A stretch of DNA of 64,000 nt, from positions 62,001 through 126,000 of the forward strand of contig JAFUAB010000002.1 of the NCBI GenBank assembly GCA_017460885.1, given 5' to 3'. Shown one piece after another: positions 8,513-27,443 of the stretch; the first letter of the stretch is position 1, and each line of letters begins with the position of its first letter. The position numbers were made by a program, and so were the translations under genes. This DNA comes from Lachnospiraceae bacterium (GTDB lineage Bacteria; Bacillota; Clostridia; Lachnospirales; Lachnospiraceae). The notes beneath the pieces were generated by a model. The model did not search any database, was not told the origin of the DNA, and was given only the letters and a program-made list of their open reading frames with translations.

Positions 8513-9195
8513 ATGGCAAATCGAACAAATGTTCCCGGGGGGGGGTACTCCTTGAAGACATAAATAAAACAAGCTCTAATGGAGAGTCAGGGCGTGGGAG
8601 ACGAAAGCTTCCCACGGTAATAATTCTTACGCTCGCCGCACTGGTATTACTTGGAGCAGGCTATCTTCTCTTCAACCATGGTGGGAACGAGATAAGCACC
8701 ACGTTTGGTAACGTGCGAGGAGAATTGATCGGTTCTGAGTATGAAAGTCCTTCCGAGCCGCTGGTACCACGAGAAGAGATCAACATCCGTCCGGCTGTAA
8801 CGAACACAGGGGATGTAAGCATCTACAGTTTCATCACTGTCACTGTTCCATATAGCACAGTCGATGGGGAGATTGTTGAATGGTATGATCAAGCCCCCTC
8901 CACTGCTTGGACGATGATAGAGCGACAGGTTGATGAGGCTACAGTTACTTACGTTTATGCCTATGAATCCGAGTGGGACAGTTTGGTGGTACTGGAGAGT
9001 GGGCAAAGTAGCGAACCTCTCTTCGATGATGACCACAAGCTGACGGTAGGAGCGATAGGGCTGTTAGAAGAGTCCGATCGTACAGACAGTAGCAGGGCTA
9101 AAGTAAGGGTTGATTACCACGTCTGCCAGAGCAGGATGATGGATGGGCTTTCCGATTCTGAAGTGTTTGAGGCGATTCTGGAGGAAGAGCGATGA
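8513..9195 (+). CDS. TasA/camelysin-like surface protein, frame broken at a G9 tract
   Basis: The uninterrupted part (from GTG 8713) encodes a beta-rich extracellular domain ('PLVPREEINIRPAVTNTGDV', 'SIYSFITVTVPYSTVDGEIV') like TasA/camelysin-type proteins. The same frame upstream encodes RRKLPTVIILTLAALVLLGA, a membrane segment or signal, but it contains no start codon. The likely start is ATG 8513 (MANRTNVPGGG) after GAGGA, in another frame. The two frames meet at nine Gs (8537-8545), and ten Gs would join them. With nine Gs the product ends after 16 residues. The gene overlaps the next by ATGA, which supports a real coding unit. Phase variation and a sequencing error both explain this. Confidence 0.6.
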
Positions 9196-10976: not shown

Positions 10977-12494
10977 TCACGCGGTGACGGTGACGCTTAA
11001 GGAAGCGTCCTTTGATTCTGGATGCAGTTTTTGGTATTCCTCGCGGTATTTCCGCTGATGAGTGATAAAGTCCTGGAGAGTGGTGAAAAACTTTCTCCCA
11101 AGACCGTTGATGCTGGCAAGGTTGCAAGACAAATATGAGGTGATTACATCGCCCGTGGTATTCAGGTCATGTTCTTGAAGGATTTTGATATAGCGTTTGA
11201 AGTCTCCATTGAGTTCTGGAAGGGCTTCAACTGGAATATCGAGGACGGTAGCATCCTTGACCATGGAATACTTTTCATATGAGAATTCCTGACCGGTCAG
11301 CATCATGTAGTACATGGCAATTGCCAGTTTGCGGGCGACGGCATGGGTTGCTTTCTTCCATTTGCCGCCACTTTGGACATACATATAACCCCATCTTCCG
11401 AAAGCCTCTGAATGGCCGCGCATGATTTTATCGGCACTGTTTACGAGGATATTGTGAAGAGGGCGACAACCGCCTCGTTTTTTGACACTTGTCACATGAC
11501 CGGCACTGACCTTAAGGCTTGGATCAAGTCCACAATAGGCACTAAGGGCTTTGCCGTTTGGAAAACGGCGAGGAGTTGAAACATATGCAAGCCAAGTGAA
11601 ACATGTTATCTCGCCAACGCCAGGAGTTGTCAGTAGGATGCGCACCATTTCTGAACCCGGAAGGGTGCCGTCCTTGGTTTCCCATTCAATGGAGCCGACT
11701 TTAGCCCTGATGCGGTCAAGGTACTCGGCAGCATAATTTGTGAATATGTCGTATTGCTCATATTCGCGCCGGATGACTTGTTTCACATCGGCTGGTAGAC
11801 CTTTTGGACAGACACCCTCATGCTTGGATGGATGATCAGAAGCCAGATCTTCGATCAGGGCACGAGTTTCCTGGTTTTTGACTACGCTACCCTTTGAGGC
11901 AGAGGTAATACCGAAGCGCACGATCATGTTATTTATCCTATTGGAGCACCGCGTGGCAAGCTTGACGAAATGCTCTCGTTCTGAAATAAGGACGCGCAAT
12001 TCTTGAACTGGAGTTGGAACTATATATGATTCAGGCCAAATATTTGATAAGTCATGAAAAGAGAGGCGCTCCGCATCGAGCACATCAGTCTTACGCTTGG
12101 TTGCCCCGGCTATTGTCGGGTTGATTACAGAAGGGTTGCCTTCCCATGCGAGAAGTATGGGCATATGGTATGTTGCTGTTGCCTCAATAACATAATGGAG
12201 AGGCTTCGAGGTGTCTGGCACTGGGTCGGAATATTTTTTGATTACATTGATGACCCATTCCCTGGCAGAGACAAGCGAAGACCATTCGGTGTCAAATTCC
12301 TTGATGTATTTGAACACCTTATTATTGCGCCTGACATGAACGCAGATGACGATAAAACGGGAATGACAGTCGATACCGACACCATAGGACTTAAGTTTTT
12401 GAACCTCGACACCATCGTCAATGATTTGGACCTCAGTTTCATTTCTTGCGAGGATAGAGGTATTGAGTAGATTTGGTGATTGATGTTTTGACAT
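10977..12494 (-). CDS. IS110-family DEDD transposase
   Basis: IS110 recombinases combine an N-terminal RuvC-like DEDD domain with a C-terminal domain carrying a catalytic serine, guided by a bridge RNA. The first acidic residue is in 'YGVGIDCHSR', followed by 'VIEATATYH' and 'KTDVLDAERL'. The C-terminal domain contains 'LLTTPGVGEITCFTWLAYVS' and 'FPNGKALSAYCGLDPSLKVS', typical of IS110/IS116/IS902. I chose ATG 12494 (MSKHQSPNLLN) with AGGA upstream; the open frame to 12665 runs through the non-coding leader. At 505 aa it is longer than most IS110 transposases (300-450) but shows no frameshift. It is probably active or only recently silenced. Confidence 0.9.
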   Translation of the reverse strand: MSKHQSPNLLNTSILARNETEVQIIDDGVEVQKLKSYGVGIDCHSRFIVICVHVRRNNKVFKYIKEFDTEWSSLVSAREWVINVIKKYSDPVPDTSKPLHYVIEATATYHMPILLAWEGNPSVINPTIAGATKRKTDVLDAERLSFHDLSNIWPESYIVPTPVQELRVLISEREHFVKLATRCSNRINNMIVRFGITSASKGSVVKNQETRALIEDLASDHPSKHEGVCPKGLPADVKQVIRREYEQYDIFTNYAAEYLDRIRAKVGSIEWETKDGTLPGSEMVRILLTTPGVGEITCFTWLAYVSTPRRFPNGKALSAYCGLDPSLKVSAGHVTSVKKRGGCRPLHNILVNSADKIMRGHSEAFGRWGYMYVQSGGKWKKATHAVARKLAIAMYYMMLTGQEFSYEKYSMVKDATVLDIPVEALPELNGDFKRYIKILQEHDLNTTGDVITSYLSCNLASINGLGRKFFTTLQDFITHQRKYREEYQKLHPESKDASLSVTVTA

Positions 12495-12890
12495 AACAAA
12501 TAATCCTGGACATATATGAAGTCCAGACCTCCTTTCTGGAAGTGCAAGTTGTAAACGGTAGTAAACGAAACTGATCATGAGTGCTGTGGCACGATTGCAA
12601 CGACATAATGTCAGCGTCTTAGCACGATGCTTCAATTGAAGCGGTATCGAGTAGACGAAACTCATCTAGGAGTTCGCAGACTTCATGACAAAAATTCGCT
12701 AATACCGCAGGCCCAGGCTGTGAGAGAGCGTTCACTCTTACGAGGACGCTAACGAAAACCGCGGGGCTCGAAACATCCGACAAAGGAGACTCATTATTGT
12801 GACATCGTAGCTGACAATAAAACACATTAGCATGATTCTGGTTGTACACCGAAATAATACTTAGGAGCTCATTCCTTGTCGAATAGGGCA
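12495..12890 (-). ncRNA. candidate IS110 bridge-RNA region
   Basis: About 400 bp between the transposase start and a strong leftward promoter hold no credible gene. In IS110-group elements the leader 5' of the transposase encodes the bridge RNA, whose two internal loops pair with target and donor DNA. The position and size fit, and the region has several potential stems. The exact RNA ends and loops were not determined. Confidence 0.45.
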
Positions 12891-12993: not shown

Positions 12994-13374
12994 ATGCCTG
13001 AAAACACAGGGGATAACGGAAAGAAATCGAAGGAGTCCATTGATCCGGTCTTGCAGCGGATTTCTGATCTTTTGAAGGCACAGGGGAAGCAGGAAAAAGA
13101 ACTAATCCAATATATTGGACTTGGAAGAGGGACTTTTACGGCATGGCGTTATAGGGGAGTTAAGACCTACACGCAGCATATTGATGAGATAGCTGAATTT
13201 CTGGATGTCTCTCCGAATTACCTTATCAGAGGCGAAGACGGAGAAATAGGGGTCGAAACATTATCAGAGGCAGAAATATGGCTGATAAAGACCTATAGGG
13301 CGGCAGATGATGTGGGAAAGAGCCATTTACGACAGACTGCCAAGTATATTGAAATGGCGACTGACGAAAACTGA
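12994..13374 (+). CDS. XRE/CI-like regulator
   Basis: A 126-residue protein with a lambda-repressor-type HTH at about residues 16-75 ('LLKAQGKQEKELIQYIGLGR', 'GTFTAWRYRGVKTYTQHIDE', 'FLDVSPNYLIRGED'). A short helical C-terminus (LSEAEIWLIKTYR) like phage CI-type proteins without peptidase domain follows. ATG 12994 follows GGAAGGAAGAG. It faces away from the IS110 element and its strong promoter with a dyad, so it may control that promoter. It could also be a leftover phage regulator unrelated to the polysaccharide genes that follow. Confidence 0.8.
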   Translation: MPENTGDNGKKSKESIDPVLQRISDLLKAQGKQEKELIQYIGLGRGTFTAWRYRGVKTYTQHIDEIAEFLDVSPNYLIRGEDGEIGVETLSEAEIWLIKTYRAADDVGKSHLRQTAKYIEMATDEN

Positions 13375-13516
13375 CGAAAAACCTACATTCTTAGATGAGG
13401 CAGAGAACTGTAGTGCTGAGACTTGAATATAGATGGGCATCAGAGGATGACATGGTGTAATGGCAAAGAGGACAATTTAGAGGAACTGAGGATTGAGCGA
13501 TAGGAGAGATGAAAAA

Positions 13517-14302
13517 ATGAATTCAGCGACGGCGGAGGCAATTGATGGTGTTTCGCATAATAGGGCATTAGCACTAAAGCATGACATGAAACCTATACAG
13601 CGGGTGGAGAGAAAGTACAGTAATATTCAGTTTGATTCCATGGGTAGAGTCATCCGTGCTTATGAAGGCATGGATATGAAAGCAGTGTATGCAGCAAAGC
13701 CTATAGCCTACAAGATTGTGAAACGGCTCTTTGATATTATCGCTTCTGCTTTAGGTCTCATTATTCTGTCTCCTTTGTTCCTTGTTATGGCTATAGCAAT
13801 AAAAATGGAAGATGGTGGTCCGGTGATATTCTCTGGGCAGCGATGGGGTAAAGATTTTAAGTACTTCCCGATGCATAAGTTCAGATCGATGTGCGTGGAT
13901 GCAGAAAGTCGCACTGCTGAGGTGGTCGGTGAGGATGATAAAAATGGTATGGCCTTTAAGGTTAAGGATGATCCAAGAATCACGAAGGTCGGAAAGTTTA
14001 TGAGGAAAACTACGATAGATGAATTACCGCAACTTTGGAACGTGCTGAAAGGGGAGATGAGTTTGGTAGGTCCCAGACCGATACAGACAACGAAGGAAGA
14101 TGGTGATCCTTATGACTTCCAAAGATGGTGCGTGAAGCCGGGGCTTACTTGTTTCTGGCAGGTTGACGGTAGGGCTGAAGTTCCGTGGGATGAATGGGTG
14201 GAGATGGATTTAAAGTATATAAATGAGATGAGTGTAGGAACTGATTTGAAATTGCTGTGGGCTACGGTACTGGCTGTTCTCGGGAAGCATGGGGCGGTGT
14301 GA
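13517..14302 (+). CDS. undecaprenyl-phosphate sugar-1-phosphate transferase (initiating enzyme)
   Basis: The enzyme moves a sugar-1-phosphate from a UDP-sugar to undecaprenyl phosphate and so starts the repeat unit. The C-terminal bacterial-sugar-transferase domain is complete: 'KRLFDIIASALGLIILSPLF' is the membrane hairpin, 'HKFRSMCVDAE' and 'DDPRITKVGKFMRKTTIDEL' lead to 'PQLWNVLKGEMSLVGPRP'. The family's final 'KPGLTCFWQVDGR' is also present. No N-terminal CoA-binding-like domain is present, so it is a short WcaJ/EpsL-type form. ATG 13517 follows TAGGAGAGATG. The next gene starts in its stop codon. Confidence 0.93.
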   Translation: MNSATAEAIDGVSHNRALALKHDMKPIQRVERKYSNIQFDSMGRVIRAYEGMDMKAVYAAKPIAYKIVKRLFDIIASALGLIILSPLFLVMAIAIKMEDGGPVIFSGQRWGKDFKYFPMHKFRSMCVDAESRTAEVVGEDDKNGMAFKVKDDPRITKVGKFMRKTTIDELPQLWNVLKGEMSLVGPRPIQTTKEDGDPYDFQRWCVKPGLTCFWQVDGRAEVPWDEWVEMDLKYINEMSVGTDLKLLWATVLAVLGKHGAV

Positions 14303-15384
14303 TGAAAACAATATTGCATATAACCGAATGTTTGGGAAGTGGAGTTCTTAATTATGTTAAGAATATTACCACTTGGCAAGTTAAAGACTATAAAGTTGTG
14401 GTAGCATATTCCACGCGTCCAGAGACTCCCGAAAATTTCAAAAATCAGTTTGATAAACGAGTACAGTTTATAAAGGTTAATGGCTTTACAAGAGAGATAG
14501 AACCAAAAAATGACTTGAAAGCATTCATACATATTAAGAAAATTGTTAAGAAGCTTAATCCAGATTTGATACATCTGCATTCCACAAAGGCCGGAATATT
14601 AGGAAGATGGGCTATTAATTGCGATAAGTATAAGGTTTTTTATTCACCACATGCTTATAGTTTTTTGATGCAAGATGTGAGTATTAGGAAAAGAAATCTA
14701 TACAAGTTGATAGAGAGGTTATCTAATAGGAAGAATTGCTTAACAATTGCGGATATAGACGGAGAGTTAGAAGCAAGCAAGCAGGTTACAAAGAATGCGA
14801 TATGCATCCCTAATGGTATAAATCCAGATGAAATGGATGAAATAATAGAACAAGCAAAGCCATTAGTAGAGAAATTTGATAAAACTACAGTTTGTCTGTC
14901 AGGGAAAATCGTCCCGCAAAAAAACCCAAAACTTTTTAATGAAATAGCAGAAGCCCTTCCGGAATATAATTTTCTTTGGATTGGAGCTGGACCTTTAGAA
15001 CATGAGCTTAAAAGTCCTAATATTACGATAACCGGATGGGTTAGAAGACCTGAAGCAGTTGCAAAAATTATGAGTTCTGATATATTCTTATTCACTTCTT
15101 TATGGGAATCCCTCTCTATAGCACTTATGGAAGTAATGTATTTGGCAAAGCCGTGCGTAGTCAGTAAATGTGATGGCAATAAGGATGTGATTAAAACAAG
15201 GGTGAATGGATATCTATGTGTTAAAAAGGAAGAATATGTTGAAGCCATAAGGAACATTATTAATGATAAGGATCTATTGCAAAAACTAGGACAGAATGCA
15301 AAGTCAGATATTATAGCTAAATACAATGTAAAACTTATCGAAAGGGAGTATCGAAATCTCTTTCATGAATTCGGAATTGAGTGA
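14302..15384 (+). CDS. family-4 glycosyltransferase (GT-B)
   Basis: A GT-B retaining transferase acting on the lipid-linked intermediate. The N-terminal domain begins 'KTILHITECLGSGVLNYVKN' and contains 'PDLIHLHSTKAGILGRWA'. The C-terminal donor domain has 'TTVCLSGKIVPQKNPKLFNE', FLWIGAGPLE and the EX7E-type 'FTSLWESLSIALMEVMYLAK'. ATG 14302 overlaps the previous stop (TGATG). Codon use turns AT-rich here and stays so to about 28 kb. The sugar specificity cannot be read from the sequence. Confidence 0.9.
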   Translation: MKTILHITECLGSGVLNYVKNITTWQVKDYKVVVAYSTRPETPENFKNQFDKRVQFIKVNGFTREIEPKNDLKAFIHIKKIVKKLNPDLIHLHSTKAGILGRWAINCDKYKVFYSPHAYSFLMQDVSIRKRNLYKLIERLSNRKNCLTIADIDGELEASKQVTKNAICIPNGINPDEMDEIIEQAKPLVEKFDKTTVCLSGKIVPQKNPKLFNEIAEALPEYNFLWIGAGPLEHELKSPNITITGWVRRPEAVAKIMSSDIFLFTSLWESLSIALMEVMYLAKPCVVSKCDGNKDVIKTRVNGYLCVKKEEYVEAIRNIINDKDLLQKLGQNAKSDIIAKYNVKLIEREYRNLFHEFGIE

Positions 15385-15454
15385 ATTCTGTAAGGATAAA
15401 AAATTGTGAGATTCATAGAATAAAAGGTGCAGGCAATATAGTTGCATAGATAAC

Positions 15455-17473
15455 ATGAGCATAAAATCAAAAATCAAAAATGATTTGTATCAAATCAATT
15501 ACATAATCCCTTTTACGCTTAAGTATCTTCAAAACGGCAAAGTAAATTATGTTAAAAAAGCATTACCGTATTTTATGAAGCTTAGAGTTGTAAAAGGAAC
15601 CGGTAATCGGGATTTATCCAAAGATATTATAAAACTTATGCAGGAGATAAGAATGAATCCAGTTAAGGGTTCTAGTTTCTTCTATACATTAGATGAATAT
15701 AAGACAGTTGCTGCAAAGGGTTCATTTATTGGGAATTGCGCAATTGATTTTGATATGATAATAAACCATGCTTTTATTGATTATGCGGAAAAGGCAATTG
15801 CTGTTGGTGGAATTTATGGTGAAAGGGCAAAAAATACGATATATGGATTGCAAGTATTAATTGACCGTTCAATTATAGCAATAGAGAATTCGACTCAGAG
15901 TTTAGACAAAGAAAGACTTATTTGGGAATTTAAGAGAATATTGAATAATCCTGCTATCCATTTTCATGAGGCTCTTCAGCGGGTTTTGTTCTTTAATCAG
16001 TATCTTTGGCAAACACGGCATAGATTAAATGGTCTTGGTCTGCTGGATAGGGTGCTTGATAAAACATATCATCATGATATAAGGGAGGGAATTATTACAA
16101 AAGAAGATGCATATGAAATGATAATAGATTTCCTGAAATGTCTATGTGAATGGTATGAGTTTAAGAGTTCATCGCTTATGGGGGATATTGGACAAATAAT
16201 CATTCTTGGTGGATTGGAATCAAAAGACAAATATTTTTGTAACGATTTAACATATTTATTTCTGAAGGCTCAAGCAGAGTTGAAAAGACCGGATCCGAAG
16301 ACGCTACTCAGAGTTAGCAGCCAGATGCCAAGGGATTTGTTAAAGGCGGCAGTTGCGGCATTGATGTCAAGTACAGGAAGCCCACTTTTATCAAATGATG
16401 ATGTGATTATTCCCGTACTATCTAAAGGTATTTTCCTAAAAAGTGATGTATATAATTATGGAGTTTCTGCATGTTGGGAGCCATTTATTCCGGGAAAATG
16501 CCTAGATCAGAATAATGTACTCAAGTTTGATTTTTTTGAAGTTCTCGAGAAAGTCTTATCACAGAATGAATTAAGTGAGGTTAGTGAATATGATGAATTA
16601 ATAAATCTGTATGATAAGCAGCTTAAGGACAGTTGGGAGGATGCGTTAGATTCCTTAAACGAGCAAAAATGGTCGGTAGATCCTTTTTTTTCTATATTGA
16701 CGGAGGGATGCACAGAGTCCGGGAAAGATATTTCTGAGGGTGGAGCCAAGTATAATAATTATGGTGTTACTACTGTCGGCATAGCTAGTACTGTAGATTC
16801 GCTATTAAATATAAAGAAATATGTGTTTGAGGATAAAGAATATAAATTAAATGAAATTAATGGTTTTCGCCTTAAAAATTATAATACTAACAAGAAACTA
16901 TTACAAAGACTGAAGACTTCAAAATGTTTTGCACATGACAGCAATTCAAGTATTGAATTAACCAATCATATCATAATTAAATCCAATGAAGTTGTGGACA
17001 AGCATATTAATAGTTTGGGTGGAATGGTGAAATATGGACTAAGTTCTCCTGATTATGTGAGAAATGGAAAGAAAACGGGTGCTGACTTTGCTGGGAGATT
17101 GTCTGGTCAACCATATGAAACACATATATCAGCATATGATGTGTCATACACGGAATTGGTTAGTTTTGCAGGAAATATCCAATATGATTCGCCGTGCGTG
17201 AATGGAAATGTAATTGATCTGATTGTACCTCCTAGTTTTATTCTCACTAATAAAGAAAAATTCATAGAGTTTATAAGGAGTTCAATAAAGCTAGGATTTT
17301 ATCAAATGCAAATGAATGTTTTAGATAGCAAAACATTGAAAGAGGCCAAAATGCATCCTGAAAGGTATAAGGGGCTAATTGTCAGGGTTTGGGGATTTAG
17401 TGCTTATTTTGTAGAACTTCCAGAAGATTATCAGGATCAGATAATTAAACGTGCAGAGAAAATCTATGAGTGA
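15455..17473 (+). CDS. glycyl radical enzyme of the CxEP (dehydratase/lyase) type
   Basis: Glycyl radical enzymes use a backbone Gly radical and a thiyl radical for difficult eliminations and C-C cleavages. The Cys loop is 'YGVSACWEPFIPGK' with Cys340 and Glu342. It matches the C-x-E-P-x-x-P-G-K loop of diol dehydratases and choline lyase, not the Cys-Cys of pyruvate formate-lyase. The radical loop is RVWGFSAYF, with Gly647 25 residues from the end. Other family landmarks are 'IHFHEALQRVLFFNQYLW' and 'KTLLRVSSQMPRDLLKAAVA'. At 672 aa it is about 100-150 residues shorter at the N-terminus than typical members. Its activase is encoded at 26583. The next genes (LicD, IspD-like, SDR) suggest work on a polyol or glycan substituent. 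The substrate is unknown. Confidence 0.88.
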   Translation: MSIKSKIKNDLYQINYIIPFTLKYLQNGKVNYVKKALPYFMKLRVVKGTGNRDLSKDIIKLMQEIRMNPVKGSSFFYTLDEYKTVAAKGSFIGNCAIDFDMIINHAFIDYAEKAIAVGGIYGERAKNTIYGLQVLIDRSIIAIENSTQSLDKERLIWEFKRILNNPAIHFHEALQRVLFFNQYLWQTRHRLNGLGLLDRVLDKTYHHDIREGIITKEDAYEMIIDFLKCLCEWYEFKSSSLMGDIGQIIILGGLESKDKYFCNDLTYLFLKAQAELKRPDPKTLLRVSSQMPRDLLKAAVAALMSSTGSPLLSNDDVIIPVLSKGIFLKSDVYNYGVSACWEPFIPGKCLDQNNVLKFDFFEVLEKVLSQNELSEVSEYDELINLYDKQLKDSWEDALDSLNEQKWSVDPFFSILTEGCTESGKDISEGGAKYNNYGVTTVGIASTVDSLLNIKKYVFEDKEYKLNEINGFRLKNYNTNKKLLQRLKTSKCFAHDSNSSIELTNHIIIKSNEVVDKHINSLGGMVKYGLSSPDYVRNGKKTGADFAGRLSGQPYETHISAYDVSYTELVSFAGNIQYDSPCVNGNVIDLIVPPSFILTNKEKFIEFIRSSIKLGFYQMQMNVLDSKTLKEAKMHPERYKGLIVRVWGFSAYFVELPEDYQDQIIKRAEKIYE

Positions 17474-17479
17474 TTTATT

Positions 17480-18322
17480 GTGGTGATGATGAACGAAAAA
17501 AAGGGATTAGACTTAACTGAAATACAAGATGCACTGTATGAAATCTTGTGTGCATTTGCTGATTTTTGCGAAGATAATGGATTAAGATATTATCTTACAG
17601 GGGGAACGCTACTTGGAGCCATAAGACACAAGGGTTTTATACCGTGGGATGATGATATTGATGTTAATATGCCTCGACCTGATTATGATAAACTATGTGA
17701 AATAGCTGATGGTTACATAGGTAAATATATGTTGGGGATAGACAAAAGACTGTATCTTAATTACGTAAGACTATCAGATTCGAATATATTTATACATATG
17801 AAATATGAAGGCTTTTTTTTTGAAAAAAGAAAGGATCTTGTAACTAATTTATATATTGATATTTGTCCTCTTGATGGATTACCGGAAAAAAAGAGTCTCT
17901 TTAGATTAGAGTGTACTCTGATGTCCCTCTTAATGGGAATGCAGGGGGTGTTATATCATGGTTTTGTAGGTAAAACGTTAGTTAAGAAAATGGCAAGGGT
18001 GCCACTATATCCATTAGCAAAAGTATTCGGAAAAGACAGATTGAGCAAGTGGTCAGATTTACTTGCTCGTCACATTGATTTTTCTAGTGCTAAACATATT
18101 GGGGCAATTTTAACATTTAATAGATTTAAAGATTATTTACCAAAGAATGAGTATCTTGAACAAGTAAAAGTTGATTTTAGAGACAGAAAGTTTTTTACGA
18201 CAGCAATGTATAAGGAACATTTAAGACTTTTGTACGGTGATGATTATATGAAATTACCTCCTGAGAATCAAAGAACTGGTATGCATACATTTAATGCCTG
18301 GAAAGAGGACATAAGAAGTTGA
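17480..18322 (+). CDS. licD: LicD-family phosphotransferase
   Basis: LicD/fukutin-type enzymes transfer a phospho-alcohol such as phosphocholine or ribitol phosphate from a CDP-linked donor to a sugar. The nucleotidyltransferase-fold motif is complete: 'LRYYLTGGTLLGAIRHKGFI' and then 'PWDDDIDVNMPRPDYDKL'. The start is uncertain among GTG 17480 and ATG 17486/17489, as no clear ribosome site is visible; it lies 6 bp after the glycyl radical enzyme. The following IspD-like cytidylyltransferase begins inside its stop codon, which strongly suggests that the pair makes and uses one CDP-linked donor. Confidence 0.9.
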   Translation: MVMMNEKKGLDLTEIQDALYEILCAFADFCEDNGLRYYLTGGTLLGAIRHKGFIPWDDDIDVNMPRPDYDKLCEIADGYIGKYMLGIDKRLYLNYVRLSDSNIFIHMKYEGFFFEKRKDLVTNLYIDICPLDGLPEKKSLFRLECTLMSLLMGMQGVLYHGFVGKTLVKKMARVPLYPLAKVFGKDRLSKWSDLLARHIDFSSAKHIGAILTFNRFKDYLPKNEYLEQVKVDFRDRKFFTTAMYKEHLRLLYGDDYMKLPPENQRTGMHTFNAWKEDIRS

Positions 18323-19035
18323 ATGTAGCAGTAATATTTGCAGGTGGAACAGGCAGGAGGATGAAGACGAGCGAGAAGCCCAAGCAGTTCTTGCTTGTGC
18401 ATGGGAAACCTATCATCGTGCATACTGTTGAAATATTTGAGACACATCCCGACATCGACGGCATTGTGATAGCTTGTCTTGAGGAGTATATAGGGCATAT
18501 GAATGACCTGGTCTATCGATACAGATTGGACAAGGTCAAAGCCATAGTTCCCGGAGGACGGACAGGCCAGCTTTCAATATACAATGGAGTGAAGAAGGCC
18601 GCAGAGCTTTATGAGGACGAAGCCACTGTGGCTCTTATTCATGATGGGGTCAGGCCATTCATCGATCATGACCTTATCAGCCGTAATATAGAATGCGTAA
18701 AGAAGAACGGGTCATGCATCACCTGCGCGCCGGCAAGTGAGACTTTCGTCATATTAAATGAGGATGCTGAAGTCGACCATATTATGAACAGAAATCTCTC
18801 GCAATCAGCCAAGGCTCCGCAGAGTTTCTATTTGCATGATATCCTGAAGAAGGAAGAACAGGCGCTTAAGGATGGATATGATGACATGATTGATTCTGTG
18901 ACCCTTATGTGCCATTATGGGCTAAAACCAGCAATAACTGAGTGCGGCTCAGACAATATAAAAATCACAACACCGAATGATTTCTATATATTTAGGGCGC
19001 TTTATGATGCCAGAGAGAATTCACAGCTGGACTGA
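18319..19035 (+). CDS. IspD/TarI-like cytidylyltransferase
   Basis: The enzyme couples CTP with a phosphorylated alcohol to give a CDP-alcohol. The nucleotide-binding start is 'VIFAGGTGRRMKTSEKPKQF', then 'PIIVHTVEIFETHPDIDGIV', 'VALIHDGVRPFID' and 'QSAKAPQSFYLHDILK'. At 238 aa it has the TarI/IspD length. In this setting, next to LicD and an SDR, a CDP-ribitol-, CDP-glycerol- or related polyol-forming role is more likely than the isoprenoid step. Translation appears to start at TTG 18319, overlapping the licD stop. GC content is clearly higher than in its neighbours, a sign of separate origin. Confidence 0.88.
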   Translation: MNVAVIFAGGTGRRMKTSEKPKQFLLVHGKPIIVHTVEIFETHPDIDGIVIACLEEYIGHMNDLVYRYRLDKVKAIVPGGRTGQLSIYNGVKKAAELYEDEATVALIHDGVRPFIDHDLISRNIECVKKNGSCITCAPASETFVILNEDAEVDHIMNRNLSQSAKAPQSFYLHDILKKEEQALKDGYDDMIDSVTLMCHYGLKPAITECGSDNIKITTPNDFYIFRALYDARENSQLD

Positions 19036-19109
19036 CAGAGCATGGCGGGAGTCACTGAGCACGACCGTAAACACAGAGCACGAAAGGATGTTAAGGAACA
19101 AAACAAGTT

Positions 19110-20126
19110 ATGAGTGATATTTTTAAGCAGGATATCGAAACGGTTGTAAACGCTGATTTCATACCTTGGGAGAAACTGAATAATAAGATTATATTTATTA
19201 CAGGAGCCACAGGGCTGATAGGTTATACGCTTGTAAATTCGCTCGTAAAAGCCAACATAGAGAAGGACTTAAACATTAACCTTATTCTGCTGGTGAGGGA
19301 TCGTAAAAAAGCAGAGAATCGGTTTGAAAATGTCATTGACATGGATGGCAGACATATTGTGTTCATAGAGAATAGTGTTGAAGGATTAGTTCCCAGGAAA
19401 TTGGACAGCCATCAGATCGATTTCATTATCCACGGTGCATCAAACACAAGTAGCAAAGGATTCGTGACGAATCCAGTAGAAACAATTGACACTGCCCTGA
19501 TCGGTACAAGGAATGTGCTTGAGATTGCAAAGGAACATAAAGTGGATGGATTTATATACCTGTCATCCATGGAAGTTTATGGTTACCCTGAGAAGGGGCA
19601 TAAGGTGACGGAGGATGAAATTGGAGATCTTACACCACTTGATGTCAGAAATAGTTATCCGATCAGCAAGGTTATGTGTGAATCGATGTGCGTGGCTTTT
19701 GCAAAGGAGTATGGTGTTTCAACGAAAATAATACGTCTGACACAGACATTTGGGCCGGGAGTGAACTATACCGATAACAGAATCTTTGCATACTTCCTGC
19801 GCTGCATGAATGAGAGGAAGGATATTGTTTTAAAGACCAAAGGAGAAACGGAAAGAAGCTATCTCTATACCACGGATGCAGTTACAGCTATATTGACTGT
19901 CCTGTTAAAAGGAGTATCGGGGGCAGCGTACAATGCTGCAAATGAAGCTACTTATTGCTCAATAAAGCAGATGGCTGAGGAAGTTGCAAAAGATGCAGGA
20001 GTGAAAGTGGTTTATGATATACAGGATGAAAAGAGCAACGGATTTCCACAAACGTTATTTATGGATTTGGATACAAGTCTGCTCCAGAACTTAGGATGGA
20101 GAGCGTATGGGGGGGTATTGGAGTGA
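19110..20126 (+). CDS. extended SDR (NAD-dependent epimerase/dehydratase), C-terminus cut at a G7 tract
   Basis: A Rossmann-fold nucleotide-sugar or polyol reductase/epimerase with 'IIFITGATGLIGYTLVNSLV', the catalytic Ser in YLSSMEVYG and the Tyr-Lys pair in SYPISKVMCE. In IspD-SDR pairs such as Bcs1 the SDR supplies the reduced polyol phosphate, but those SDRs are shorter. The frame ends at 20126 right after seven Gs (20109-20115). With eight Gs it would run on through GVMFKRMLIYFYVLKGKQE to a stop at 20177-20179. That stop overlaps the next gene's ATG (ATGA), and the family normally has such a helical tail. The present end is therefore probably not the native one. Confidence 0.85.
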   Translation: MSDIFKQDIETVVNADFIPWEKLNNKIIFITGATGLIGYTLVNSLVKANIEKDLNINLILLVRDRKKAENRFENVIDMDGRHIVFIENSVEGLVPRKLDSHQIDFIIHGASNTSSKGFVTNPVETIDTALIGTRNVLEIAKEHKVDGFIYLSSMEVYGYPEKGHKVTEDEIGDLTPLDVRNSYPISKVMCESMCVAFAKEYGVSTKIIRLTQTFGPGVNYTDNRIFAYFLRCMNERKDIVLKTKGETERSYLYTTDAVTAILTVLLKGVSGAAYNAANEATYCSIKQMAEEVAKDAGVKVVYDIQDEKSNGFPQTLFMDLDTSLLQNLGWRAYGGVLE

Positions 20127-20175
20127 TGTTTAAGAGGATGCTAATATATTTCTATGTTTTGAAGGGAAAACAGGA

Positions 20176-21213
20176 ATGAAAAAAGTGTTGATCGATGGGC
20201 GAAATTTTGACCGTAATTTTTCTGGTGGAGCGAGATATGCAAGAGAGATTGTGGTGGGATTAGATTCTATAATTAAATCTGAAGAGTATTACTTGATAGT
20301 TGACAAGGATTTAATTGGACACTGGAATTTGAATTTGAGGAACATCTCAATGATGGAATATTCCAGTAAAAATGGAATAAATAGATATATTGAATTATTT
20401 AAGCTGTGTAGGCGTGATTATTTATATATCAATTTGTTAAATGGTATGGCGGTAGGAAAGAATAATTCAATCGTTACATGGCATGATTTATTTCCATTCT
20501 ATGGTGTAATGGGATTAAATAAGTATAATACTTTTAAATTGAAATTTAAAACATATGAAGCTATATTGTTATCAAAATCACTGGTTACTGTTTCTGAATA
20601 TAGTAAAAGTACAATGATTGACAAATTACATGTTAATGAGAAAAAAATCACAGTAATTCCTAATAGCTGGCAACATATTATAAGTATCATCCCTGATGAA
20701 AAAATAATAGATGAGTATAAACTAAGAGATAGAGAATATTATTTCTTCCTAGGGCGTCTTGTAAGAAACAAGAATATAGACTGGATTTTTAGGATTGCTG
20801 ACAGTAATCGCACAGCATTGTTTGTGATAGCAGGAGCGTTGCGAAAAACAGAGAAGTTTTCATTCTATAGTGGAAAAAATAATAATATTATATATACAGG
20901 CTTCATTACGGATGAGCAAATGGCGGCACTATATATGCACTGCAAAGCCTTTCTCTTTCCTTCGTTGATGGAAGGCTTCGGAATCCCTCCGATGGAAGCC
21001 CTATATTACGGAGCGCCAATTATCATTTCAAATACATCGTCTTTGCCGGAGGTGTATGAAGATGCAGCGCATTACATTGACCCGTACAAATATGACTATG
21101 ATTTGGATGAGATATTGAAGGAACCTGTGGCAGATCCGCAGAAGATCCTTGACAAATACAGTTGGGAGAAATCTGCAAGACAGTGGTACGAACTGATAGA
21201 GAGTTTTAGATAA
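20176..21213 (+). CDS. family-4 glycosyltransferase
   Basis: A GT-B transferase of 345 aa. The N-terminal half is 'RNFSGGARYAREIVVGLDSI', with 'IVTWHDLFPFYGVMGLN' and 'LVTVSEYSKSTMIDKLHV'. The C-terminal half is 'YYFFLGRLVRNKNIDWIFRI' and the donor-site 'FPSLMEGFGIPPMEALYYGA'. This resembles mannosyl- or rhamnosyl-type GT4 enzymes of capsule loci. ATG 20176 overlaps the frame-corrected end of the SDR gene and its own stop overlaps the next start (TAATG), so the run is a tight operon. The acceptor and donor are not readable. Confidence 0.9.
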   Translation: MKKVLIDGRNFDRNFSGGARYAREIVVGLDSIIKSEEYYLIVDKDLIGHWNLNLRNISMMEYSSKNGINRYIELFKLCRRDYLYINLLNGMAVGKNNSIVTWHDLFPFYGVMGLNKYNTFKLKFKTYEAILLSKSLVTVSEYSKSTMIDKLHVNEKKITVIPNSWQHIISIIPDEKIIDEYKLRDREYYFFLGRLVRNKNIDWIFRIADSNRTALFVIAGALRKTEKFSFYSGKNNNIIYTGFITDEQMAALYMHCKAFLFPSLMEGFGIPPMEALYYGAPIIISNTSSLPEVYEDAAHYIDPYKYDYDLDEILKEPVADPQKILDKYSWEKSARQWYELIESFR

Positions 21214-22210
21214 TGGCTTATAATAATGAAAAAGTCCATATAAGAATGGCATTTATCTTGTTGCACTACATGAACGAAGCATTGACTTCAAGGGCAGTTG
21301 AGTCGATTCTTGAGTTAAAAGGCGTGGACGATTGCAGAATAGTGGTTGTTGACAATGCAAGTTCAAATGGCAGTGGAGAGAAGTTAAGGAATAAATATGA
21401 ATCCGAAATAATCCATGTGATAATATGCAATGAGAATGGCGGTTTCTCGAAAGGGAATAATGTCGGATATAGATACGTAAAGGATAATTATGATTCGGAA
21501 TTTATAGTGGCCGCTAATAACGATGTGTTGTTTCCGAATGCTGGATTCATCGAAGAAATAAGCAATCTGTACAAACGATCGCCGTTCAATGTGGGGGGGT
21601 GGATGTGTATGTGCCTGACAGGTATCTGCATCAGAACCCTATCCAACATTCAGTATCGTTCCTCAGCATAAACGAAATGAGTGCAAGAAAGGAGAAATAT
21701 CAAAGAACTGTCGAGAAGTTGGAGAAGAACTTCTCTTTTTTTGCGCTCAAAGGTTACTTGAAAGAAAAATATCGAAATAAAGTAACGGGCATTTTGCTGA
21801 GGCTGAAACGAACCATAACATCATTGATACCGCTCAGGGATCATGCTGTCGGTTATACAGGAAGGAATATGACGCCGGATGGTGGGTGCTGGTCTGAATG
21901 TAGTGACGAATGCATTCTTTTTGGCGCGTGTCTTATTTTTGACAAGGACTTCATAACGGATAACGACGTCCTGTTCGAGCCGCATACTTTTATGTATGAG
22001 GAAGAGTTTTTCTTGAAGCTGCGATGCACCTTAAATAACTATCGTATGGCGTATTATCCAGATGTCCAAGTCTGGCATACGCAGGAAGGCAGCGCAGATT
22101 TCGGTCAGCAATCCTTCAGCGAATATAGGAAATGCCGAGCCGGTAAATACTTGCAGAGGATAAAGGCAGTGGACACTTATATTGATTATTTGAGATCGCT
22201 TGGTTATTAG
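21213..22210 (+). pseudogene. family-2 glycosyltransferase split by a frameshift at a G7 tract
   Basis: Residues 1-126 form a GT2 start: 'MAFILLHYMNEALTSRAVES', 'IVVVDNASSNGSGEKL', 'GGFSKGNNVGYRY' and VAANNDVLF. The frame then runs out just after seven Gs (21593-21599). The second half continues in another frame as 'DVYVPDRYLHQNP' to RSLGY at 22210. One more G joins them as NVGGVDVYVPDRYLHQNP. This parallels HVAGPDILIPDRCFHQNP in the intact neighbour at 22392. The gene is therefore full length apart from a one-base change, either a phase-off state or a sequencing error. Confidence 0.85.
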
Positions 22211-22391
22211 CTGAGTGGCCAATGCTTCAACCGGCATGTAAGCTGCCGACATATATGCATATGCGTTAATACTGTTTATACTGTAAATACAGTTTATACC
22301 ATTCAAACTGTTAAATCAGCTAACACAGAGGTAAAACACCTGGAGATCCATTGACTTGTGAGATGCCCGTTTTGTAGGGAGGGTATCTCTG

Positions 22392-23507
22392 ATGGAAAAT
22401 CGGGAAAAACAGAGGTGTTCTGTATGTTTTATCATCTTAAATTACAACGAAATAGAGCTTACAAAAAAATGTGTGAAATCAATATTTAAGCTTGAGAATG
22501 CCGCTGTCAACAAGTCGGATGCACCACAGGCTGATGAACCATACGTTATCATCCTGGATAATGCATCTCCGAACGGATGCGGGGAGCAATTATTTAAGGA
22601 GTATGAAAGTAATAACAGAGTAAAGGTAATACTGAATAAAGAAAATTCCGGCTTCGCTGCCGGGAATAACATTGCATTCAGTTATGCAAAGGAAAATATA
22701 GATGCTGATTTCATTATAGCGGTCAATTCGGACGTGTTATTTATTCAGCACGGCTTTGTCAGGAAATTATTTGATTTATATGAGGAATACCCCTTTCACG
22801 TAGCGGGTCCGGATATTTTGATTCCAGACAGATGCTTTCACCAGAATCCCCGCATGACAGTAGATGGATATCCATCTGTAGAACAGGTTTACACGATGAA
22901 GAGGGAATGGGAGGCAAGCGCAAAGCATCTTCATGACCGGGATATGTTTGCTTTCAAGAAATATGTGAGGGAACGATATCGCTTCACATGGTGGATGCGG
23001 GCGTTATTTAGAATAAAGAGAACGCTGGAACAAACGGTGAGTTCCGTGCATCATAAAAGCAAGGGCCCCATAAAGCTCGGAGCATCCTCTGACAGCTTCC
23101 ACTCTACAGCATCATCACCAATAGAGAATGAAAATGTACAGCTCTTAGATACGGTTGATATCAATAAGCTTGGACTGTACAAAAAACAGCTCAAGAACGT
23201 GTGTTTGCAAGGGCCCTGTATTATCTTCGATAGGCGTTATATTGCAGAGAGAGATGTGCTTTTCAATCCTCTGACATTCATGTATTTTGAGGAGCAGATT
23301 CTTTGTCTGGACTGTTATCTTAACAATTGGAAAACGATATATTTTCCGCAACTGAAAGTCGTGCATCTTGATAGCGGATCGACATATAATGGACGGATGG
23401 GTTTTGAGGAATTCTGCCAGAAGAAGGAACAGAGCTATAGGCGTGGAATCGAAGGTACAGATGTGTACTTGGAATACTTGGGCAGGCATCTATTATCTGA
23501 TGAATAG
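22392..23507 (+). CDS. family-2 glycosyltransferase
   Basis: An intact 371-residue GT2 enzyme and a diverged tandem paralogue of the preceding gene. Motifs are 'VCFIILNYNEIELTKKCVKS', 'VIILDNASPNGCGEQLF', 'GFAAGNNIAFSY' and the DXD-like VNSDVLF. A long insert follows (about residues 165-260), then 'CIIFDRRYIAERDVLFNPLT' and 'FMYFEEQILCLDCYLNN'. ATG 22392 has AGGGAGG upstream. The 181 bp before it contain a short inverted repeat (CTGTAAATACAG region) but no gene. Its role is sugar addition at the cytoplasmic membrane face. Confidence 0.9.
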   Translation: MENREKQRCSVCFIILNYNEIELTKKCVKSIFKLENAAVNKSDAPQADEPYVIILDNASPNGCGEQLFKEYESNNRVKVILNKENSGFAAGNNIAFSYAKENIDADFIIAVNSDVLFIQHGFVRKLFDLYEEYPFHVAGPDILIPDRCFHQNPRMTVDGYPSVEQVYTMKREWEASAKHLHDRDMFAFKKYVRERYRFTWWMRALFRIKRTLEQTVSSVHHKSKGPIKLGASSDSFHSTASSPIENENVQLLDTVDINKLGLYKKQLKNVCLQGPCIIFDRRYIAERDVLFNPLTFMYFEEQILCLDCYLNNWKTIYFPQLKVVHLDSGSTYNGRMGFEEFCQKKEQSYRRGIEGTDVYLEYLGRHLLSDE

Positions 23508-23651
23508 CATTTATGAACCTAAGTCAGTATTGTTGAGCTGCCAATTTACCTATATAACTACAATTGTATTCTTTATGAAATGTCGTAGAGATATTGGCAC
23601 ATAAATATAATGTTTTTTGGTGTCATCTTAGGAAAAATATTAGGAGGATAA

Positions 23652-24959
23652 TTGGAAAGGAAATATAAAATATCTATCAATATACCAATCTTTATGATTT
23701 CTATGCTCATACTTCTCGTTATTTTCTGCAAGTATAATATCGAATCACGTATGGGCTATATAATTTTCCCGGTTGAATTTATATTTGCATTTGTACTGTA
23801 TTCCAGACAAACTGAGGATGGAAGACTGAATGGTGTATCTGTTAGAAGAGTGATATACGTATATTTTTTCTTTATGATATACAGAATATTTGTATCTGCG
23901 CTTATAACAGGGAGTCTTTACGATGGAACCAAAAAGATATTGTATTATGAGGTAGGCGTTCTGTTTCTTCTATATTTTGCAGTTTGCCTTACAAATGCAG
24001 AAGATATAATAATTACTCTTCGGAATATAGGAATTGTAAATGCGGTCCTCGGAGTTTATGAGACAATTACCCGTTCTAGTATTTTTATGAGATTTATTGA
24101 TGTTGAGAACCGAATACAATTTTCTAATTTATTAGGAACAGAAAATAACAGGGCAAGGACAATTTTTTTCCATCCAATTATTTGTGCAGTGTTTTGTACT
24201 TATATTTGGTGTATACTTTTGTACTATCCAATGAAGGGTAAATGGATAAATACGATATCTCAGATTGCTCTGATAATATGCCTTATGGGGACGAAGTCCC
24301 GAAGTTCCTGGATTTCTTTTGCTATTGTAAATGTTATTTACCTCGTACAAAGGCTATCAAAAAAGAAAGGCACTATTGAAATTGGTAATATATTCTATGG
24401 ATTAGTTTTTGCAATTTTTATGATTGTTATATTTATTATCCAAAGAGACTATATATTGAGTGCGGGTAGAGTGTTATTAAATCGTTGGATGCTTGTATTA
24501 GATGCTGATGATGCGGGGAATTATAATAGAATAACAATGATAAGAAATGGGCTACAGGATTTCGCCGGATGGGGTGTATTAAGCAAGATTTTCGGCAAGG
24601 GATATTTGTATGCGTATAATTTGCTTCAAAGACACTCAATACGAGGATGGACAACAGCGGTTGATAATTCATATCTTACCGCACTATTGGATTATGGTAT
24701 CGGCGGATTGTTGTTTCTTTTCTATTTTATATACATTTCTATTAAGAGCATACACAGTCGCAGTAGGCTGCATAAGATGTGTGGGTTAAGTATTTTGAGC
24801 CTTTTTATTTCGGGTTTTTTTTATGAAATGTTTTCATGGTTTACACCAAATTTTCTGTTGGCGCTTTCCTTTTGTCTAATCTCTGTACATTTCGAAGAGA
24901 ATGATTCTTTTGATTGCAATACAGAAGTAAATGGCACAATAATGACAGATATAATGTGA
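23652..24959 (+). CDS. Wzy-type O-antigen/EPS polymerase
   Basis: A 435-residue integral membrane protein with about ten hydrophobic segments. A large extracytoplasmic loop near the C-terminal third holds 'GWGVLSKIFGKGYLYAYNLL' and 'GWTTAVDNSYLTALLDYGIG'. The latter matches the O-antigen ligase/polymerase pattern 'hN.yl..l...Gi.g'. The conserved LMGTKSRSSWISF corresponds to the 'l..t.SRga' motif. Translation starts at TTG 23652 after AGGAGG. It sits next to the flippase, so the repeat units are polymerised outside the membrane by a Wzx/Wzy pathway. Confidence 0.85.
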   Translation: MERKYKISINIPIFMISMLILLVIFCKYNIESRMGYIIFPVEFIFAFVLYSRQTEDGRLNGVSVRRVIYVYFFFMIYRIFVSALITGSLYDGTKKILYYEVGVLFLLYFAVCLTNAEDIIITLRNIGIVNAVLGVYETITRSSIFMRFIDVENRIQFSNLLGTENNRARTIFFHPIICAVFCTYIWCILLYYPMKGKWINTISQIALIICLMGTKSRSSWISFAIVNVIYLVQRLSKKKGTIEIGNIFYGLVFAIFMIVIFIIQRDYILSAGRVLLNRWMLVLDADDAGNYNRITMIRNGLQDFAGWGVLSKIFGKGYLYAYNLLQRHSIRGWTTAVDNSYLTALLDYGIGGLLFLFYFIYISIKSIHSRSRLHKMCGLSILSLFISGFFYEMFSWFTPNFLLALSFCLISVHFEENDSFDCNTEVNGTIMTDIM

Positions 24960-25011
24960 ATTCAAACACGAATAAAGTCAGTATAAAACCTCAGAGAAAA
25001 AGATAAAATGT

Positions 25012-26406
25012 ATGCGAAGTAAATTAAGAAAGGGCATTGCTCAGGTTCTTTTAGCTAATGCTATAAATCTAATTATTTCTGTCTTTAACGGCTTTATAAT
25101 TCCAAAATTTCTATCCATTCCAACATATGCAAATTACAAAACATTTCTACTCTATACAAGCTATGTTGGTATTTTACATTTTGGGTTTATTGACGGAGTA
25201 TACATTCGATATGGGGGAAAGAACCTAGAAGAATTGTCAAGAAAAGAATTATCCTCTATTCAGAAGACACTTTTTGTATTTCAGTTCCTGATAACCGCAA
25301 TAGGGGTTATCGTATCCCCCTTCATTCATGATATATATCTATTCATCGCCGTTCTATGCGTAATGCCAACTAATCTGCAAATGTTTTTTCGTATCTTGTT
25401 TCAAGCGACTGGGGAGTTTAAGCAATATAGGAGGATATTGAATGCACAATCTATAACCGTTTTCGTTTTCAATATACTTCTTATTTTGGCTTTGCGAAAC
25501 GATGATGCCAGAGTCTATGCTATTGGCTACTTTGTTATTAGCGTCATTGTATGGTTGCTCTTTGCTTATGATATCCGAGACTTGTTTGTAAAAACCACGA
25601 TAAAGCTGGTAGATATTGTTAGAATGCTTAAAGAATATATTGGTCTTGGCATGATCATTATGTTTGGGAACTTTATGTCCATATGGATTACAAGTATAGA
25701 CAGATGGTTCGTGAAATTCCGATGTTCTGAGAATGAGTTTGCATATTATTCTTTTGCCGTATCTATGTTGAAGCTGGTAAATGCCGTGTTTGGAGCGTTT
25801 TCCGTTACGCTTTACAATTATTTTTGTGAGCATCATAATAATAAGCAGGTAAAGGATATAAGGAAGAAAATAATCATTATCGGTGCGATTATCGTTTCCT
25901 GTTCATTTCCATTAAGGCTTGTGGTAGATGTTTTTCTTACCAAATATATCCCATCGGAGACAGTGATGATGTATCTGATCTTGTCCCAGCTTTTTGTGGT
26001 CATTATTAATTCGATTTATATGAATCTATATAAAGCCTTAAATCTGCAGAAAAGGTATTTGAGGATTATGATAGAGACATCTATTATAGCTGTGGTGGCG
26101 AACTTTATTTTCGGATGGATATTTGATTTTTCAATGGTTTCGTTTTCATATGCCACTTTCTTGACTATGTTTATCTGGTTGTGCAGATGTCAGATTGATT
26201 TGAGGGAGTATAGGCTGGAAACGAGAGAATGGATATATGTCATTTTGACAGTTTGTATTTTTTTCATTTCATGCAGGTTTACATCTATCATCGGCTTTAT
26301 TAGCTATTTGGCACTTGTTTTCCTTGTGGCACTGGTAATGTTTAAGGATGATATGATGTCTTTGCTTCATATGAGTATCTCATTAGTAAGAAGAGGAAAG
26401 CATTAG
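25012..26406 (+). CDS. Wzx-type polysaccharide flippase
   Basis: A 464-residue MOP-superfamily transporter with about 12-14 hydrophobic segments. The opening 'LRKGIAQVLLANAINLIISV' followed by FNGFIIPKFLS is typical of Wzx, with conserved 'WITSIDRWFVKFRCSENEFA' in the middle. It moves the lipid-linked repeat unit across the membrane for Wzy. The start at ATG 25012 has only a weak ribosome site. The gene is directly followed by the glf remnant, so it was probably once coupled to that gene. Confidence 0.88.
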   Translation: MRSKLRKGIAQVLLANAINLIISVFNGFIIPKFLSIPTYANYKTFLLYTSYVGILHFGFIDGVYIRYGGKNLEELSRKELSSIQKTLFVFQFLITAIGVIVSPFIHDIYLFIAVLCVMPTNLQMFFRILFQATGEFKQYRRILNAQSITVFVFNILLILALRNDDARVYAIGYFVISVIVWLLFAYDIRDLFVKTTIKLVDIVRMLKEYIGLGMIIMFGNFMSIWITSIDRWFVKFRCSENEFAYYSFAVSMLKLVNAVFGAFSVTLYNYFCEHHNNKQVKDIRKKIIIIGAIIVSCSFPLRLVVDVFLTKYIPSETVMMYLILSQLFVVIINSIYMNLYKALNLQKRYLRIMIETSIIAVVANFIFGWIFDFSMVSFSYATFLTMFIWLCRCQIDLREYRLETREWIYVILTVCIFFISCRFTSIIGFISYLALVFLVALVMFKDDMMSLLHMSISLVRRGKH

Positions 26407-26576
26407 TGATAATTATAGTGGGCGTAGGTCTTTTTGGATCAGTTTGAGCAAGGGAATTAACTGATAATTGGTATAAGGTTCTTATTCTTGGATGTTATAA
26501 GGTTTATGACATGGATAAAGTGATTGAAGAAGCACAAGATATATGTTGTAAGATACCATTTTCATCGGAATCTTGA
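26406..26576 (+). pseudogene. glf: UDP-galactopyranose mutase remnant (internal deletion)
   Basis: One frame reads IIIVGVGLFGSV, an in-frame TGA, then ARELTDNWYKVLILG. This is the FAD-binding start of Glf. The next codons give YKVYDMDKVIEEAQDICC, which matches the very end of Glf ('eYkYyDMD.vI..AL'). The 340 or so residues between are gone. The locus has thus lost its own supply of UDP-galactofuranose. The remnant lies between the flippase and the radical-SAM activase. Confidence 0.7.
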
Positions 26577-26582
26577 TAAGTT

Positions 26583-27443
26583 ATGGGAAATGATAGTGTT
26601 TTAATCACCAAAATCCAGCGTTTCTCTCTTCATGATGGTTCAGGGATCCGTACAACTGCATTCTTAAAAGGCTGTCCATTACGTTGTCCTTGGTGTTGCA
26701 ATCCTGAGAATCTAACACTTTCACCAGAACCTTATGTTAAGGACGGCATCGAAGGTATATACGGTGAAAAACTTACACCTGACGAACTGTTAACTGAGCT
26801 TCTGAAAGATAAGCCTTTCTATGGCGGCGATATAACTGAAGCAAAGGACTATTCTATAACATCTGCATCTGAGATAGATCGTCTTCCCGGAGGAGTCACT
26901 TTCTCAGGCGGTGAAGCACTATTGCAAATGCAGAATCTCGTTCCAGTCTGTGAGAGACTGAAAGAGGAGGGGGTTCACATAGCATTAGAGACGAGCCTGT
27001 TCTCTTCTCCTGAGTCTATAGCTTTAGCTGTTGAATTTATCGACTTCTTCTATATTGATGTAAAGATAATGGACGAACACCGTTGCAGGGATATACTTAA
27101 TGGCAATATAAATGTCTATAATGATAACTTGTCCACAGTATTTAATTCTGGTAAACCTGTGATTCTTCGAGTTCCAGTGATTGGTGGCTTTACTGATGAT
27201 GTGGAGAACAGAAAAGCAGTAGCAGAGCTGATAAAGAGCTTAAAAGATCGATCTAATAATGTCTTGAAAATTGAACTGCTTAAGGAACACAATTTGGGAC
27301 TTTCCAAATACGAGAGCTTAAGAGCTGCTGGAAGTGATATAGCTTTGCCAGAGTATAAAGGCATGAGCGATGAGTTTATGGAGGCATATAAGGCTGAGGT
27401 TAAAGCGGTTACAGATTTGCCGGTTGAGGTGATGAAGATCTGA
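26583..27443 (+). CDS. glycyl-radical-enzyme activating enzyme (radical SAM)
   Basis: The protein generates the Gly radical on its partner enzyme using S-adenosylmethionine and a [4Fe-4S] cluster. The cluster motif C31-x3-C35-x2-C38 lies in 'FLKGCPLRCPWCCNPENL'. The preceding 'RFSLHDGSGIRTTAFL' and the later GGVTFSGGEALLQ are the activase signatures. It lacks the second ferredoxin-like Cys set carried by most dehydratase activases, so it resembles the short PFL-AE form. The only partner in view is the glycyl radical enzyme at 15455, 9 kb upstream on the same strand. ATG 26583 lies directly after the glf remnant. Its 3' neighbour starts at the very next base. Confidence 0.92.
   Translation: MGNDSVLITKIQRFSLHDGSGIRTTAFLKGCPLRCPWCCNPENLTLSPEPYVKDGIEGIYGEKLTPDELLTELLKDKPFYGGDITEAKDYSITSASEIDRLPGGVTFSGGEALLQMQNLVPVCERLKEEGVHIALETSLFSSPESIALAVEFIDFFYIDVKIMDEHRCRDILNGNINVYNDNLSTVFNSGKPVILRVPVIGGFTDDVENRKAVAELIKSLKDRSNNVLKIELLKEHNLGLSKYESLRAAGSDIALPEYKGMSDEFMEAYKAEVKAVTDLPVEVMKI

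Follow-up and report, generated by a model that had tools for sequence, protein, structure and literature searches.

We propose that a clade of short glycyl radical enzymes (GREs) is dedicated to surface-glycan assembly in anaerobic bacteria, where its members would tailor sugars by radical chemistry, with loss of a hydroxyl group before export; we place the probability of this reading at about one half. The enzyme under study, a radical enzyme of an oxygen-sensitive kind, is encoded at positions 15455..17473 on the plus strand of a 64,000-nucleotide stretch of DNA (hereafter the window) from a Lachnospiraceae bacterium (GenBank assembly GCA_017460885.1, contig JAFUAB010000002.1, positions 62,001 to 126,000). 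It lies, together with a radical-SAM activase (26583-27443), within a run of same-strand glycan genes that extends from 13493 to 27443. A role for this GRE in surface-glycan assembly is strongly supported. The characterised GREs of the pyruvate formate-lyase (PFL)/dehydratase type that we compared serve fermentation or nutrient breakdown, and the biosynthetic class III ribonucleotide reductases are more distant. We know of no earlier glycyl radical step in surface-polysaccharide biosynthesis, and none of the listed matches from the open-access literature, as judged by titles and the beginnings of abstracts, describes such an enzyme in loci for capsules, O-antigens or other surface glycans.

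The 672-amino-acid product of the intact open reading frame (ORF) matches the Pfam families PFL-like (E 1.7e-61) and Gly_radical (E 4.7e-12) and has the features of its superfamily, namely a C-terminal glycine radical loop, a catalytic cysteine and the GRE fold. Our alignment A2 comprises the window GRE and 60 of 73 full-length members, and 31 of these 61 sequences entered a maximum-likelihood tree of 60 GREs. All 31 form one clade with a support of 100/100. Its sister, again at 100/100, consists of other short GREs from the same bacterial family, and the member clade stands apart from CutC, HypD, PflB, PflD and YbiW. The window GRE scores 33.3 bits against the PFL model TIGR01255 (cut-off 994.2), and 125 to 194 bits against the NCBIfam equivalog models for CutC, HypD, HpsG/HpfG, HPAD, indoleacetate decarboxylase and PRK09983 (formate C-acetyltransferase), whose cut-offs range from 1000 to 1150 bits. 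Scores, tree placement and contact residues led us to reject membership in any named GRE family scanned. The phylogeny that a preliminary description of this DNA had put forward as a check leaves the enzyme outside the named GREs compared.

The same description had pointed out a Cys340-x-Glu342-Pro motif and a radical Gly647, and the alignments bear it out: C340, E342, P343 and G647 align with C489, E491, P492 and G821 of CutC (L135), while C340, E342 and G647 align with C435, E437 and G766 of HypD (L143). Within A2, C340, W341, E342, N354 and G647 are invariant (61/61). The members carry A339-C340 in every case, versus C409-C410 in the compared PflB, and hence lack the Cys-Cys pair that is the hallmark of PFL. 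Tryptophans directly after the catalytic cysteine and directly before the radical glycine occur in every one of the 61 members and of the 13 sister-clade rows, versus none of five reference GREs. The CXE motif, which excerpts of PMC8473560 and PMC7077986 present as a conserved feature of GRE eliminases, is found as C340-W341-E342 in all 61 members. An AlphaFold2 model of the window GRE (pLDDT 92.2, pTM 0.92) has GREs as its structural matches throughout, and the protein has no hydrophobic segments. It is shorter than the dehydratases compared, as had been remarked before, largely because two blocks of about 36 residues are missing (58-94 and 112-147 of E. coli PflD, shortly before His156 in sequence).

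The genomic surroundings of the clade carry most of the argument for a glycan role. A contig collection that represents 84,980 species by a single genome each contained 169 relatives; the best 80 were kept and gave 78 loci, and once six of the ten loci of a first survey had been dropped as duplicates of these, the set stood at 83, including L120, whose GRE is interrupted by a stop codon, and loci truncated where a contig ends. Within the stretch available, 80 of the 83 carry GT2, Wzx, GLF, sugar-transferase, LicD or DUF4422 genes, in agreement with the earlier view that the GRE and its activase are built into a glycan locus. The loci without such genes are L059, L068 (3.3 kb) and L125, the last of which has a WbsX-type glycosyltransferase, seen in its copy L042. 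Wzx was recognised in 56 loci (the candidate in the window excluded) and immediately adjoins the GRE in 36. A single ORF joins an N-terminal GT2 to a C-terminal GRE in L043, L102 and L108, and L041 (=L121) has its activase fused to a GT2.

The commonest partner of the GRE is a galactofuranosyltransferase-like GT2 (GT2a), present in 40 of the 83 loci versus none of 40 control loci; in a held-out check it was recovered in 16, 18 and 20 of 63 held-out loci versus 0/40 controls. The controls were listed PF01943 matches, chosen for the length of their frames and the contig space around them. All come from the host's family, whereas the GRE loci span wider taxa; two pairs neighbour or overlap each other, 33 of the 40 match the Wzx profile, and further glycan genes are present in 22. 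GlfT1 and GlfT2 provide a model for GT2a, which has a GlfT2-like fold and NxGG-GG, DDD, DDxEY and RN motifs, a resemblance that is not proof of the donor sugar; it falls below the NCBIfam GlfT1 cut-off of 330 (70.8 and 82.2 bits). We rejected the idea of reading galactofuranose (Galf) from the mere presence of UDP-galactopyranose mutase: the mutase occurs in 357 of 397 family genomes and in 10 of the 11 GRE-positive ones (p 1.0), so its co-occurrence with the GRE is uninformative. By title and abstract start, none of the open-access papers that a joint search for the two terms found concerns a link between glycyl radicals and galactofuranose. A further neighbour, a protein of about 130 amino acids with a GAGDLGR-type Rossmann-like motif, adjoins the GRE in 12 loci (L041 (=L121), for example at 8580-8978, L107, L111, L112, L115, L117, L118, L122-L125 and L128). 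The two copies scanned gave no Pfam match, and a domain of this type also forms the C-terminal part of some GT2 proteins.

The activase in the window, 286 amino acids long, carries a single CX3CX2C cluster (C31-x3-C35-x2-C38), as the preliminary description had read it, and scores 202.6 bits against TIGR02494 (cut-off 174.35). It has six cysteines in all, which leaves no room for a two-cluster ferredoxin insert, and it shares an ORF cluster with activases of other GRE loci. An activase is present in 75 of the 83 loci, with CX3CX2C in 73 of these; three of the eight loci without one are contigs under 6 kb.

Eleven of 397 family genomes, the host's included, carry relatives scoring at least 430 bits, after which there is a gap to 263 bits. 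In a phylum-wide sample at a strict cut-off (E 1e-150) only the host's own genome was found (1/398), and the family is therefore patchy. Two scans of viral contigs found no GRE relative. Among the loci returned (the best 80 of 169 relatives), most come from Bacillota metagenome-assembled genomes and some from isolates, and members also occur in records named Synergistaceae or Fretibacterium and Eggerthellaceae. Named strains are Lachnoclostridium sp. An196 (L109), [Clostridium] aerotolerans DSM 5434 (L113) and Breznakiella homolactica (L127), the last as a complete genome. Six members (L067, L068, L071, L083, L086 and L102) sit on contigs named as archaea (Methanobrevibacter, Thermoplasmata), which may reflect either gene transfer between domains or faulty binning. 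One glycan locus, L061, encodes two different members about 7.5 kb apart (3463-5493 and 13019-15049), and in L056 a second member is truncated where the stretch ends.

In the window, an IS110-type transposase (10977-12665) marks the left edge, upstream of a glycan region with a GC content of 0.34-0.41 versus 0.43-0.60 across the remaining window. All genes of the region lie on the plus strand. A polyprenyl-phosphate sugar-1-phosphate transferase (13493..14302; PF02397, E 4.3e-66), predicted to initiate the repeat unit, and a GT4 glycosyltransferase (14257..15384) precede the GRE; a GT4 from the same ORF cluster also directly precedes the GRE in L054 and L061. Directly after the GRE, as previously noted and now confirmed with Pfam, come a LicD-family phosphotransferase (17480..18322; PF04991), an IspD/TarI-like cytidylyltransferase (18319..19035) and a short-chain dehydrogenase/reductase (SDR) of the NDP-sugar epimerase/dehydratase type (19110..20126; PF01370), none of which is a conserved partner. 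They are followed by a second GT4 (20176..21213), two GT2 glycosyltransferases (21213..22210 and 22392..23507), a Wzy-type polymerase (23652..24959; PF04932, Wzy_C), a Wzx-like flippase candidate (25012..26406) and the activase (26583..27443). The earlier picture of the flanking genes thus holds for the sugar transferase, the glycosyltransferases and Wzy. The Wzx assignment rests on ten hydrophobic segments and position, as the candidate matches neither Pfam nor the Wzx profile built in this analysis, and a G run (21593-21599) breaks the first GT2 into two reading frames. Both assembled copies lack a single open frame there and differ by two bases, and the run could reflect phase variation or a mistake in the assembly. 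The two copies arise because the host assembly is duplicated or mixed: the whole window is present twice (contigs C50 and C33) at about 100% identity, contigs C32 and C38 also pair by equal scores, and assembly contamination is 6.64. The second GRE copy, which sits on the duplicated contig, was therefore not counted as biology, and we ruled out two genuine copies in the genome.

GRE chemistry, as set out in an excerpt of PMC8473560, proceeds from a glycyl radical to a cysteine thiyl radical and on to a C-H bond of the substrate. Following this scheme, the activase would install the radical on Gly647, from where it would move to Cys340, and the resulting thiyl radical could abstract a C-H hydrogen atom of a sugar. 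Glu342 of the CXE motif would act as a base, and the sugar radical would most likely shed a neighbouring hydroxyl group by 1,2-elimination, giving a deoxy-carbonyl sugar that might be kept, reduced or aminated. We infer a sugar substrate because of the glycan context, the sugar-use neighbours in two sister-clade loci and the precedent of PflD and YbiW, while the proposed elimination follows from the CXE motif. The reaction probably takes place in the cytosol, on a nucleotide-linked or lipid-linked sugar handled by a neighbouring glycosyltransferase, and ahead of export of the repeat unit by Wzx, since the GRE has no hydrophobic segments and Wzx is next door in many loci.

The closest precedents for such a reaction are PflD and YbiW, GREs that cleave 1,5-anhydromannitol-6-phosphate and 1,5-anhydroglucitol-6-phosphate (Ma et al. 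2024, as cited in PMC12441222). They share with the window GRE the fold and the CXE motif, and act on a sugar ring. The best PDB profile match is 8id0, PflD with 1,5-anhydromannitol-6-phosphate (290.9 bits), although its lead over E. coli PflD (274.2), 2f3o (273.5) and glycerol dehydratase (264.1 bits) is small. In contrast to the window GRE, PflD and YbiW serve catabolism linked to the phosphotransferase system, are 765 and 810 amino acids long and fall outside the clade of members plus sister clade; His156 and Asp433 of PflD correspond to Asn94 and Asn354. Glycerol and 1,2-propanediol dehydratases (1r8w and 5i2g) are the top Foldseek matches of the model and share the CxEP motif, but are only about 22% identical to the window GRE, and a His and an Asp with known roles in glycerol dehydratase align with Asn in our enzyme. 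The blocks missing from the window GRE are also present in CutC and HypD, and the second ends shortly before the beta-1 contact. Closest in the tree is the sister clade (L015-L026 and L029; 663-784 amino acids), which shares the CWE and RVWG motifs and has Asn94 and Asn354 in 13/13 sequences, yet lacks the member-specific R176, Q186, K237, F571 and D588, and none of the nine loci checked matches the glycan-gene profiles. It probably serves an undescribed sugar catabolism: L049 has an FGGY kinase and an aldo-keto reductase nearby, and L045 a sugar ABC importer and fucose-isomerase-like genes, in a sample of nine loci with Pfam run on ten proteins from three of them.

Several observations weigh against radical elimination from a sugar as the function of the clade. 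The beta-1 site is Asn94 in 59 of 61 members, versus His in PflD, YbiW and HypD and Asp in CutC, and the position of PflD Asp433 is likewise occupied by Asn354. CutC D216 and T502 fall on N94 and N353 of the window GRE. Excerpts of the respective papers assign substrate-contact roles to CutC D216 (PMC8473560) and HypD His160 (PMC7077986), and the latter also reports that HypD is inactivated by H160Q. Since the substrate contacts differ from those of known eliminases, elimination may not be the chemistry. Nor can the fold decide, as eliminases and decarboxylases score alike, and we rejected fold comparison as a means of choosing between them. Neither a reductase nor an aminotransferase accompanies the GRE consistently (SDR in 24/83). 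Between the window GRE and its distant activase lie the LicD, IspD, SDR, glycosyltransferase, Wzy and Wzx genes, the window has no strong GlfT-like GT2 (the second GT2 reaches just 71 bits against the GT2a profile), and one member (L040=L120) carries an internal stop. The partner-count profiles were built from the same loci, which the held-out test partly answers for GT2a, and the Mantel test makes no correction for the relatedness of the hosts.

Within the proposed radical tailoring of sugars, we see a smaller chance that in these anaerobes, mostly of the gut, the thiyl radical often edits the Galf handled by a fused or adjacent GlfT-like transferase, through removal of a hydroxyl at C5-C6 or inversion at C5 to an L-altrose-type sugar. 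A narrower idea, a special case of sugar tailoring and rather unlikely, is that the exocyclic C5-C6 diol of Galf is the target, either in UDP-Galf or just after transfer, and that the GRE passes this sugar to a GlfT-like transferase or receives it from one; this 1,2-diol resembles the substrates of glycerol and propanediol dehydratases, and the frequent GT2a fits, while the window itself offers no strong GlfT-like transferase. Alternatively, the enzyme could be a radical epimerase, in which the thiyl takes a C-H hydrogen that is returned on the opposite face to give a rare L-sugar, for example from D-galactose to L-altrose or from D-glucuronate to L-iduronate, in each case at C5. The altered contacts Asn94 and Asn354 would allow chemistry besides assisted elimination, and a constant downstream reductase would not be needed. 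However, the invariant CXE glutamate suits elimination and no GRE epimerase is known to us, and we regard this alternative as unlikely.

The preliminary description had favoured an assembly line in which the GRE dehydrates a polyol, the SDR reduces the product and LicD transfers the CDP-alcohol formed by the IspD-like enzyme. In the window these four genes adjoin one another, and LicD, IspD and SDR also occur together in L089 and L106, but these are the only three of the 83 loci with all three partners, and none is enriched over control glycan loci (SDR 24/83 versus 6/22, LicD 10/83 versus 4/22, IspD 10/83 versus 2/22). Moreover, the SDR is of the nucleotide-sugar epimerase/dehydratase type and no obvious polyol reductase. 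Of 200 genomes, 20 carry a close SDR, one of them the host's own, and the other 19 are not among the 11 GRE-positive genomes. In 11 fetched SDR loci from genomes without a member-clade GRE (stretches of 2.6-4.0 kb), IspD lies beside the SDR in 10, LicD was recognised in 3 and no GRE was found. Low co-occurrence, lack of enrichment and IspD-SDR pairs in genomes without a member-clade GRE led us to reject this pathway, which we now consider very improbable. In L042 (13543-14949) a cytidylyltransferase and a short-chain dehydrogenase are joined in one ORF near the GRE, whereas the window has them as separate genes. Least credible is the view that a GRE of fermentation or catabolism became caught in the locus and plays no part in the glycan. 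Most characterised GREs of its type are catabolic, as far as general knowledge and literature titles go, two sampled sister-clade loci are sugar-use loci, and the region has a low GC content and the IS110-type transposase at its edge; but 80 of 83 loci are glycan loci, four fused ORFs occur in distinct genomes and the GRE co-varies with a glycosyltransferase.

Collectively, glycan-locus GREs in many anaerobes point to an undescribed radical step in the making of rare surface sugars. If our proposal is correct, the biosynthesis of surface polysaccharides would have what is, to our knowledge, its first glycyl radical step, and rare deoxy- or L-sugars could arise by this route. Radical C-H chemistry would then extend to the surface polysaccharides of bacteria, with the affected sugars confined to anaerobic conditions. 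Moreover, it would provide a testable source of rare sugars in gut bacteria, and such sugars may affect recognition by the immune system and the attachment of phages.

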